From contig JAUQWQ010000203.1 in NCBI GenBank assembly GCA_030835085.1, positions 1 to 34,657 on the forward strand: a DNA stretch of 34,657 bases, read 5' to 3'. The notes under the pieces are model-generated. The model was given only the letters and a program-made list of their open reading frames with translations. It was not told the DNA's origin and did no database searches. Below are positions 31,360 through 34,657 of the stretch, piece by piece; the stretch's first letter is position 1; every line of letters starts with the position of its first letter. The position numbers and the translations under genes were made by a program. This stretch comes from Ignavibacteria bacterium (GTDB lineage: Bacteria; Bacteroidota; Ignavibacteria; Tepidaquicellales; OLB5).

Positions 31360-32832
31360 TTAAGTTCTGTAATGCGTTTTATGTTCAATATCCCTGAAAG
31401 TCAGTTTAAATTCCGCCCCTGCACCATAGCTCGTTTCCACTTCTCCTTCTAACTGTTCTACAAGGGTATTGATAAGCAGAATACCCAGCTTTGAAGGATT
31501 TTCTGTGATAACATCATCTGATGCGCCGATCCCGTCATCATTATATATGAACTCATATGACCTGTTATCAAGTCTTAAAATTTTTAGCTGAATACTGCCC
31601 TGCCTGTTACCCGGGAAGGCGTGTTTCAGAGAATTGGTAACCAGCTCATTTATCATAAGTCCGCACGGCAAAGCCGTATCAATTGAAAAATAAATATCTT
31701 TGATCTCGACGGTTACTTTCACTTTATCATCTGTTATGCCGAAAGAAATCTTCAGCTGGTCACAAAGATCTTCCACGTATTCATAAAAATTGATCTTACT
31801 GAAATCCTTTGTTTTATACAGCTGCATATGTATCAAAGCCATCGAGCGGATCCTTTGTTCACTTGCCCTAAGGTATCCAACTGCGGGGTCGCCGGGTATC
31901 TTATTTGATTGTATCCTAAGCAGGCTGGAAACTGTCTGCAGGTTATTTTTAACCCTGTGGTGAATTTCCTGCAGCATTGTCACTTTCTCTATAAGAGATT
32001 TTTCCAGCTCTTCAGTCCTTTCTTTAACCCTTTGCTCAAGTGTCCGGTTAAGCTCCCTTATTTCGTTCTCTATTTTTGTCCTTTGCGTAGTATCCCTTAT
32101 AGCAGCTACAATCTGTATCTCATCTTCAGGATCCGTTTTAATTGGTGAGAGCGATATTTCAACATCAAACTCGGTTCCGTCTTTGCGTTTTGCCTTTAAT
32201 TCCCTGCCTTCACCCATCATTCTTATCTTGGGATTTTTTTTATATTCATCCCGGTGTTGTATGTGGCGCACTGAAAATTTCTCAGGCATCAGCATTTCTA
32301 TGTTCCGGCCGTAAAGTTCATGTTCGGAATAACCAAATAGTTTTATTGTCTGTTTATTTACAAGATTGATCATACCGTTTCCATCCACAATTATCATTGC
32401 ATCAGGAGCTGATTCAATAAGATATCTGAATTTTCGTTCTGATTTACTGATTCTTTCGGAATTCTCTTCCAGCATCGTTAGATCACGGGTGATCTTCGCG
32501 AACCCAATAAGAATACCACTCTTGTTATGAATAGCAGTAATAACACCATTACCGTAAAATTTCGATCCGTCTTTTCGAAGATGCCACCCTGAATATTCTG
32601 CCCTGCCTGTTGAAGCAGCTGTTACCAGAAGTTTCTCCGGAAAGCATGCCGATCTGCTTTCTTCCGGAAAAAAAATGCGGTAATGCTTATGCAGTACTTC
32701 ATCTTCATTGTATCCTTTAATTCTTTCTGCTCCCAGGTTCCATGAAATTATATTCCCGTCGGTATCCAGCATAAAAATGGCATAGTCAGTTATCTCATTT
32801 AAAAAATGTTCATAATCTATTTCAGGTTTCAT
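31360..32832 (-). CDS. Two-PAS sensor histidine kinase, HisKA_2 type
   Basis: 490 aa, no membrane helix, so cytoplasmic. PAS1 at about 8-120 (DYAIFMLDTDGNIISWNLGA, RKDGSKFYGNG), PAS2 at about 135-250 (LIESAPDAMIIVDGNG, MGEGRELKAKRKDGTEFDVE), a coiled coil (255-285), then the HisKA_2 phospho-acceptor EIHHRVKNNLQT (H291/H292) and the ATPase with N box NELVTNSLKHAF (393-404) and G1 box DDGIGAS (430-436). PAS domains sense redox, ligands or light; no cofactor residue could be identified. It probably phosphorylates the following receiver. No DNA-binding output is encoded nearby. Confidence 0.93.
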   Translation of the reverse strand: MKPEIDYEHFLNEITDYAIFMLDTDGNIISWNLGAERIKGYNEDEVLHKHYRIFFPEESRSACFPEKLLVTAASTGRAEYSGWHLRKDGSKFYGNGVITAIHNKSGILIGFAKITRDLTMLEENSERISKSERKFRYLIESAPDAMIIVDGNGMINLVNKQTIKLFGYSEHELYGRNIEMLMPEKFSVRHIQHRDEYKKNPKIRMMGEGRELKAKRKDGTEFDVEISLSPIKTDPEDEIQIVAAIRDTTQRTKIENEIRELNRTLEQRVKERTEELEKSLIEKVTMLQEIHHRVKNNLQTVSSLLRIQSNKIPGDPAVGYLRASEQRIRSMALIHMQLYKTKDFSKINFYEYVEDLCDQLKISFGITDDKVKVTVEIKDIYFSIDTALPCGLMINELVTNSLKHAFPGNRQGSIQLKILRLDNRSYEFIYNDDGIGASDDVITENPSKLGILLINTLVEQLEGEVETSYGAGAEFKLTFRDIEHKTHYRT

Positions 32833-33086: not shown

Positions 33087-33111
33087 AAAAACCCGCAAAT
33101 AGCGGGTTTTT
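33087..33111 (-). terminator. Terminator of the rrf2 operon
   Basis: AAAAACCCGC and GCGGGTTTTT form a 10-bp stem with loop AAATA. The minus strand continues with T, giving a clean terminator 23 bp after the rrf2 stop. Confidence 0.85.
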
Positions 33112-33134: not shown

Positions 33135-33602
33135 CTATAACCGAATTGTTTCTGCTGTATTAATGTTCGCGATCTGTGAAACAACACCTTCATTTGCAAT
33201 AAGGTCTTTTATTGTCATATTCTTCAGCACACCATCAACAGCACTTTGCAGCATTTGCCATAACGAGCGAATTGAGCAATCAACAGAATGAGTACAGATA
33301 TTTTCAGAACCGCTGTGATCATTGCAGAACTCCGCATCAAAAAGCTTTCCGCCAAGGAAATCAAGAACATCCTTCACAAGAATTTCATCAGCGGGACGGC
33401 TGAGTGTATAGCCTCCTATCTGACCGCGCGAGCTTGCCAAAAAACCGCCAAGCCTTAAGGCACGCAGTATCTTTGCGGTGTTGTGCGTAGTGATTCCTTC
33501 AGCTTTGCTGATCTCGGGAATAGTCATTCCCTTTTCACACTTTTCGCCGGCTACTCTAAGCAAACAGCGCAATCCGTATTCTTCCTGTGTACTGAATTTC
33601 AT
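33135..33602 (-). CDS. Rrf2-family transcription regulator with three cysteines
   Basis: 155 aa. Winged-helix N-terminus (MKFSTQEEYGLRCLLRVAGE, IPEISKAEGITTHNTAKILR, GQIGGYTLSRPADEI) as in IscR/NsrR/RirA. C93, C103 and C109 (EFCNDHSGSENICTHSVDCS) lie where Fe-S-binding Rrf2 proteins hold their cluster ligands; spacing X9-X5 differs from IscR (X5-X5). It likely senses iron, nitric oxide or redox state. Its ATG overlaps the stop of the DUF4160 gene by one base (TAATG), so it is translated with that gene and probably autoregulates the operon. Confidence 0.9.
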   Translation of the reverse strand: MKFSTQEEYGLRCLLRVAGEKCEKGMTIPEISKAEGITTHNTAKILRALRLGGFLASSRGQIGGYTLSRPADEILVKDVLDFLGGKLFDAEFCNDHSGSENICTHSVDCSIRSLWQMLQSAVDGVLKNMTIKDLIANEGVVSQIANINTAETIRL

Positions 33603-33868
33603 TATACTAAAGGCTCTATTTTCTTCAATGGTTCACTGTTTAATATTCTACTCCAGTTGTCTCTTAATTCGTTTTGATGTACTCTGCCCCATTCTTTGAT
33701 CAATGATACTGCATGTGAAGGCAGCTTACCGCTCATAATTTCCAAATCCTCAATTCTGAATTTCGCATCATATTCATTATATCTTACATGGAAATGTGGC
33801 TCCTCATTAAATCCTTCTCTGTAATACATTATTACAAGCATACCATAAAAACGGCTTATGGTGGGCAT
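33602..33868 (-). CDS. DUF4160 protein
   Basis: 88 aa. MPTISRFYGMLVIMYYREGF then EEPHFHVRYNEYDAKFRIED is the DUF4160 hallmark, and the C-terminus (SHAVSLIKEWGRVHQNELRD) is helical. It is nearly always found beside a DUF2442 gene and the pair has been treated as a toxin-antitoxin-like module, although a clear biochemical activity is not established. One-base overlaps (TAATG) join it to the DUF2442 gene upstream and rrf2 downstream. Confidence 0.85.
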   Translation of the reverse strand: MPTISRFYGMLVIMYYREGFNEEPHFHVRYNEYDAKFRIEDLEIMSGKLPSHAVSLIKEWGRVHQNELRDNWSRILNSEPLKKIEPLV

Positions 33869-34122
33869 TATGCATGTTCCTCAATAGATGTTTTTATCTG
33901 TGTATATACTGTTTCAGGATCTATCTCCAGATCTTCATTCCAGGCAATTCCAAATGTTTCTTTGTTAATAAAGACATCAAAAAAATTATTGTCTTTATCC
34001 CAGAATTTAAAAATACCTTTACCTGCGGAATCCGAGAGGTCGGCTTCGCCTGAAACGCCATCTTCAAATTCAGCTTGTATAACGTATTTTCTGATTGCTG
34101 CAACTCTGACAGGTTTGATCAT
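33868..34122 (-). CDS. DUF2442 protein
   Basis: 84 aa. VRVAAIRKYVIQAEFEDGVS, then GEADLSDSAGKGIFKFWDKD and GIAWNEDLEIDPETVY, are the conserved parts of DUF2442, whose beta-rich fold is shared by NE0471-type proteins. Partner of the DUF4160 gene. Start ATG at 34122, 21 nt after the bacilliredoxin stop; the intervening AT-rich spacer has no obvious terminator, so it is probably cotranscribed. Confidence 0.85.
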   Translation of the reverse strand: MIKPVRVAAIRKYVIQAEFEDGVSGEADLSDSAGKGIFKFWDKDNNFFDVFINKETFGIAWNEDLEIDPETVYTQIKTSIEEHA

Positions 34123-34143
34123 CTTTTTGAATAATTTTAAAAA

Positions 34144-34657
34144 TTAATTGCCGCTGTATTTCGGTATTTTTGAACCGCATGCTTTAGCATGCAGTATTGC
34201 ATCATATTGTTCTTTAGGAACTGAAGGACCTTCAAACGTGCAGTGTTCATTAAACGCAGCAGTAAGCTCTTCAGCAACCATATCGGCAGTTTTACCTTCT
34301 ATGTTCATTCTCTGCATCAAAAAAACAACTTCACCATCTTTGAATAATGCCATGTATGGTGATGATGGCGGAATGCCGGGTAAATATGCATTCCTTAAAT
34401 GATCAACTGCATCCCTATCCTGGCCTGCAAAAACGGTAACAATCCTGTTGGGGATAACTTTATTCTGCAAAGCAAGCGTTACACCGGGTCTTGCGCTTCC
34501 TGCAGCACAGCCGCAAACTGAATTAATCATAACAAGCGTTGTGCCTTCTTTTTGCCCGAGGAAAGTATCCACATCAGCGGGTGTTAACAATTCAACAAAT
34601 CCTGCTGCAGTTAATTCATCCCTCATCGGCTGAACCGCTTCGGGATCGTATATCGGT
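34144..34657 (-). CDS. Bacilliredoxin (BrxA/BrxB family), 5' end beyond the window
   Basis: Thioredoxin-like protein that removes bacillithiol or other low-molecular-weight thiols from oxidised proteins. The CGC active site (NSVCGCAAGSARPG) is intact, and PGIPPSSPYMALFKDGEVVF and the C-terminal CTFEGPSVPKEQYD are family-typical. An ATG at 34626 is in frame, but the frame continues upstream as PIYDPEAVQP to the window edge, matching the usual N-terminus, so the true start lies outside and the gene is partial. It heads the visible part of the DUF2442-DUF4160-rrf2 operon. Confidence 0.9.
   Translation of the reverse strand, partial: PIYDPEAVQPMRDELTAAGFVELLTPADVDTFLGQKEGTTLVMINSVCGCAAGSARPGVTLALQNKVIPNRIVTVFAGQDRDAVDHLRNAYLPGIPPSSPYMALFKDGEVVFLMQRMNIEGKTADMVAEELTAAFNEHCTFEGPSVPKEQYDAILHAKACGSKIPKYSGN

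Follow-up and report, generated by a model that had tools for sequence, protein, structure and literature searches.

A gene pair with DhiT/DhiA-type domains inserted into the SUF operon of an Ignavibacteria lineage

Gene content at the contig end and its continuation on a second contig

The window, by which we mean the entire 34,657-nucleotide stretch of DNA analyzed, is one complete contig (C117) of a 4.05-Mb Ignavibacteria draft genome, and searching with its Rrf2 protein identifies Ignavibacteria MAGs as close relatives. One end of this contig carries four genes on the minus strand. The first, brx (34144..34656), encodes a BrxA/BrxB-type bacilliredoxin with a CGC active-site motif (PF06491, TIGR04191). 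A 21-nucleotide spacer (34123..34143, minus strand) forms the leader of the next gene, which encodes an 84-amino-acid DUF2442 protein carrying a DhiA-type antitoxin domain (33868..34122; PF10387). There follow the gene for an 88-amino-acid DUF4160 protein with a DhiT-type toxin domain (33602..33868; PF13711, NF048015) and rrf2 (33135..33602; PF02082), whose product belongs to the Fe-S type of Rrf2 regulators. All four proteins score above the curated Pfam cut-offs (E=1e-56 for PF06491, 1e-6 for PF10387, 2e-18 for PF13711 and 7e-27 for PF02082). The DUF2442/DUF4160 and DUF4160/rrf2 junctions both read TAATG with a one-base overlap. The coordinates and Pfam assignments therefore bear out the gene layout given in a preliminary description of this DNA, and the arrangement agrees with its proposal that the genes form one operon, although the full operon extends well beyond them onto another contig.

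A hairpin followed by a run of T nucleotides, resembling an intrinsic terminator, is located 3′ of rrf2 (33087..33111, minus strand; RNA fold, -14.7 kcal/mol, z = -4.35) and likely represents the end of the operon. Downstream past this hairpin, on the same strand, is a gene for a PAS-PAS-HisKA_2 histidine kinase (31360-32832). Such a kinase gene is also present 3′ of rrf2 in three related loci (L041, L043 and L044), and lies more distantly in a fourth (L046).

The 5′ end of brx is cut off by the end of the contig, and the remainder of the gene sits on contig C228. The last 141 bases of C117 exactly match the end of C228, and this 141-base stretch is unique in the genome. The join is an assembly overlap rather than one made from reads, and is backed by the same gene order in congener G002 (L142). 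The operon genes on C228 run from sufB through a DinB_2 gene, sufC, sufD, sufS and sufE to a DUF59 gene (FeS_assembly_P, sufT-type), such that the joined order is sufB-(DinB-like)-sufC-sufD-sufS-sufE-DUF59(sufT)-brx-[DUF2442-DUF4160]-rrf2-terminator. This single gene run holds sufB, sufC, sufD and sufS together with sufE, where either sufE or sufU completes a SUF operon, and congeners share its order. The locus forms the 3′ end of an Ignavibacteria SUF operon for Fe-S assembly, of which rrf2 is the last gene. What had been taken for a four-gene redox system is the part of this operon that remains visible at the contig end, and its redox genes belong to the SUF operon.

The DinB_2 gene between sufB and sufC (L160:5412-5870; C228:13411-13872) is a second patchy member of the operon, beside the DUF pair. 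It occupies the same position in L142, L145, L147 and L148, and was not detected in the rest of the congeners that were compared.

The bacilliredoxin, the Rrf2 regulator and a conserved site upstream of sufB

The brx gene lies immediately upstream of rrf2 in 49 of the 71 loci that encode relatives of the window Rrf2 protein. When proteins encoded near rrf2 were clustered for the 67 analyzable loci, with the family names verified by Pfam on L042 and L053, members of the DUF59 (58/67), SufS (55/67), SufB/D (54/67) and SufC (51/67) families were recovered. The bacilliredoxin appears to be a standing member of the Ignavibacteria SUF operon. Its match to TIGR04191 (187 bits, cut-off 100) places it in the BrxA/BrxB family, and it is the only PF06491 protein of the genome, as the two PF06491 hits are the two halves of brx. 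The genome also carries bacillithiol synthesis genes for BshC (360 bits) and BshA (532 bits), both above cut-off. Because BshA and BshC are encoded and brx is the sole PF06491 gene, the probable role of the bacilliredoxin is to repair thiols in support of Fe-S assembly.

The assignment of the regulator to the Fe-S type is upheld by its cysteines, which are spaced C93-X9-C103-X5-C109, with all three (CX9CX5C) present in each of the 67 aligned relatives that have the region. A similar protein, RisR of Myxococcus xanthus, is an Fe-S repressor acting on suf and isc, carries its cysteines at C92, C102 and C108, falls in a group (IS6) that includes Chlorobi, and recognizes the site TtGAC-N7-GTCC(t/a) (PMC9973013). 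Judging from cysteine spacing, genomic context and the comparison of sites given below, the window Rrf2 protein is predicted to be RisR-like.

The preliminary description suggested searching for an Rrf2 operator upstream of the bacilliredoxin gene. None was seen there; the spacer between DUF59 and brx is AT-rich and lacks a conserved block, and a promoter scan of the window tail gave no excess over shuffled sequences. Instead, a conserved site precedes sufB. This site, AATCTTGACTTTTTTGTATAGAT (C228:11882-11904, in L160), conforms to the pattern AATCTTGAC-N6-kTmyAGATT, which is located upstream of sufB in 23 of 23 genomes examined from the genus, family and class (leaders compared include L160, L142-L151 and L168-L179). 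The TTGAC half site, identical to that of RisR, is present in all 23, and the second half is GTACA, GTATA or TTCCA at a spacing of N6 rather than N7. The consensus is an imperfect dyad, with 7 of its 12 pairs matching (P of about 0.02 against shuffled sequences). Such symmetry alone is weak evidence, and it is the conservation of the site that constitutes the strong part. The only exact copy in the genome is the one before sufB, with other hits requiring two to three mismatches; a reversed control pattern likewise gives two genomic hits. In several genomes the site is followed by a TAnnTTTG-like element, which would place the site between promoter elements.

An inserted pair related to DhiT and DhiA

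The preliminary description considered the function of the two DUF proteins to be unknown, a view that the literature and NCBIfam have overtaken, since DUF4160 and DUF2442 are the domain pair of DhiT and DhiA (PMC8198452; PMC12724237). In Dickeya dadantii 3937, dhiTA encodes an experimentally demonstrated type II toxin-antitoxin system in which DUF4160 and DUF2442 are the toxin and antitoxin domains, respectively. Overproduction of DhiT inhibits growth and DhiA relieves this effect; both genes share a transcript, and the complex acts as repressor at its own promoter (PMC8198452). A toxin-antitoxin-like module of DUF4160 and DUF2442 from a Thermus plasmid raises plasmid persistence, and a derivative without the second ORF could not enter its host (PMC12724237).

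Both window proteins exceed the Pfam cut-offs for these domains and are encoded by adjacent genes on the same strand, in an order reversed relative to dhiTA. The DUF4160 protein matches the DhiT model NF048015 with E=2e-18 across positions 1-80 of 84, yielding 66.5 bits against an equivalog cut-off of 100. The DUF2442 protein matches the DhiA model NF048016 with E=3e-4 across positions 1-66 of 160, yielding 21.2 bits against an equivalog cut-off of 200, and lacks the C-terminal part of DhiA. As both fall below the NCBIfam equivalog cut-offs, they are relatives of DhiTA at the level of domains and not equivalogs. By its sequence, the pair is related to an established toxin-antitoxin family, and its location is unusual.

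The order of the pair is also uncommon. The genome carries five DUF2442/DUF4160 pairs, and the other four have the toxin gene first. In IMG/VR, 48 of 52 DUF4160 loci have an adjacent DUF2442 gene, again with the toxin first in all 48. Toxin first is the rule among relatives, and antitoxin-first pairs were seen in the window, L042, L022 and L023. The pair of L022 (L022:1227-1761, congener G010) adjoins, upstream and on the same strand, a candidate Sua5/YwlC-type gene as read from its sequence.

In an alignment of 20 DUF4160 sequences, residues F7, H25, H27, W60 and W72 are invariant and H64 is nearly so. The AlphaFold2 model of the window DUF4160 protein is confident (pLDDT 96). Foldseek returned no match for this model at E<=0.001, and the best result of a VIA fold comparison (Z 4.2) neither supports nor opposes a known toxin fold. 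Sequence searches of the PDB gave no credible match for DUF4160 and a weak match to 2auw (E=0.007) for DUF2442. PADLOC reported no defense-system hit for the pair, and a limited literature search found no case of a toxin-antitoxin pair inside a suf operon.

Alignment to related loci (L041-L050), with empty sites such as GGCAATTAATAA-ATGAAATTC in L041, reveals that the pair and its 21-nucleotide leader constitute an insert of ~540 base pairs between the brx stop codon and the rrf2 start codon. The GC content of the insert is 36%, versus 39-44% for the operon genes. A survey of gene neighborhoods separates the locus into two parts. The linkage of brx and rrf2 proposed earlier holds up, as documented above, but the DUF pair is absent from 70 of the 71 loci and from 10 of 12 congeners, where the gap between brx and rrf2 is 0-80 nucleotides. 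The pair is present in one locus (L042, the same sequence as congener G002); a further congener (G006) was left out of this tally, as its rrf2 is only partial. Conservation at this locus thus covers the bacilliredoxin beside rrf2 but does not extend to the DUF pair.

In a tree built from seven operon genes, the window genome clusters with L143 (G012, empty site) and L142 (G002, filled site) at 99% support. Within this group, the window genome is sister to the empty L143, also at 99%, and the filled L142 is outside. Therefore, if the segment was gained once, it was either lost again with precision from L143 or transferred between lineages. Two unrelated insertions are argued against by the identical site and the related leader.

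Interpretation and comparison with known systems

We conclude, with a probability of about 0.75, that a dhiTA-like module is inserted between brx and rrf2 of a SUF operon under RisR-like regulation, and is transcribed from the sufB promoter. Most likely, Fe-S-loaded Rrf2 would repress the operon at a site overlapping the promoter before sufB, and a shortage of clusters would raise expression of all the operon genes, the inserted pair and rrf2 among them. The sufB promoter is also the most likely source of transcripts for the pair, given that the pair nearly lacks a separate leader and encodes a short antitoxin. Antitoxin and then toxin would be made from one mRNA, with translation coupled through the TAATG junctions from the brx message into rrf2. 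By analogy with the homologues described above, the DUF4160 protein would be toxic, and the DUF2442 protein would bind and neutralize it.

A less probable yet serious alternative is that the pair is a hitch-hiking and partly decayed remnant, in which the antitoxin has been kept, the toxin is inactive, and neither has a role in the operon. The confinement of the pair to two species is in keeping with such a history, as is the state of the second copy. In L042 (L042:4735-4998) ATA stands where the DUF4160 gene should have its ATG start, and initiation at either of the following in-frame start codons (GTG at codon 9, ATG at codon 10) would drop the invariant F7 residue. Its 3′ junction is ATGA in place of TAATG, from which it appears that coupling to rrf2 is retained while initiation of the toxin may be impaired, leaving a toxin that is poorly made or defective. 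However, the window copies of both genes have intact frames and ATG starts, and its DUF4160 protein keeps PHFH, W60, H64 and W72. Comparison of the window with L042 yields a dN/dS of about 0.07-0.12 for DUF2442, whereas DUF4160 has a value of 0.17. Selection on the toxin gene is thus the weaker of the two, but both values are far below 1, as expected for real genes, and both genes are under purifying selection.

It is unlikely that the module has been co-opted under the Fe-S-sensing Rrf2 protein such that the ratio of toxin to antitoxin tracks Fe-S status and cluster damage leads to slower growth. The position of the pair between brx and the regulator gene, with no space for a promoter of its own and with coupling into rrf2, would suit this arrangement, as would a short antitoxin without the C-terminal part of DhiA and the purifying selection on both genes. 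Weighing against it, only two species carry the pair, and two proteins made from one polycistronic message would rise in parallel upon induction, such that toxin should not be left free unless the antitoxin turned over at a different rate. Slightly more doubtful still is the fuller proposal that the SUF regulon has recruited the antitoxin-first module as a functional component that restrains growth upon Fe-S cluster damage under control of the RisR-like repressor.

The original proposal, that the DUF proteins act with the bacilliredoxin and Rrf2 in a redox or nitrosative-stress system, draws on the translational coupling, the common transcript orientation and the plausible redox link of brx and an Fe-S-type Rrf2 protein, but is very improbable given that the brx-rrf2 unit is old and exists without the pair in the congeners and related loci counted above, that DUF pairs occur elsewhere without brx or rrf2 (the four others in the genome and those on viral contigs), and that the four-gene unit has no conserved neighborhood in related genomes, an outcome set in advance as refuting it.

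The supposed undescribed redox system therefore resolves into two known things, which illustrates how false systems can arise at contig ends. Should the toxin be active, the reading we favor would make a toxin-antitoxin pair subject to the control of an operon for Fe-S biogenesis, and the Ignavibacteria lineage permits direct comparison of empty and filled sites. The Ignavibacteria SUF operon more generally appears to share the conserved site before sufB, a last gene for a RisR-like regulator and a bacilliredoxin, whose standing membership points to a link between bacillithiol and Fe-S assembly in this group.

Among known regulators, IscR of E. coli resembles the window Rrf2 protein in its family, its Fe-S ligating cysteines and its Fe-S assembly regulon, but the window protein falls short of both IscR equivalog cut-offs, with 61.5 bits against 207.6 and 53.8 bits against 275. 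The cysteine spacing of IscR, CX5CX5C, also differs from that of the window protein. A closer parallel is the risR-sufBCDSUT operon of Myxococcus xanthus, which has in common a C-X9-C-X5-C Rrf2 protein, SUF genes with sufT, and a TTGAC half site at a position that would overlap the promoter of the suf genes (PMC9973013). In the Ignavibacteria operon, however, the regulator gene is last rather than first, sufE replaces sufU in this genus, a bacilliredoxin gene is included, and the half sites are spaced by 6 nucleotides (TTGAC-N6-GTACA) rather than 7. The inserted pair shares with dhiTA its DUF4160 and DUF2442 domains and its small adjacent or overlapping genes, but has the antitoxin first, an antitoxin of 84 amino acids versus the 160 positions of the DhiA model, and a location inside a SUF operon, whereas dhiTA is free-standing. 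The Persistence Enhancing Module of Thermus thermophilus, in which loss of the second ORF is not tolerated, combines a DUF4160 protein of 87 amino acids with a short DUF2442 protein of 92 amino acids, sizes near those of the window proteins, but is plasmid-borne and has the toxin gene first (PMC12724237).
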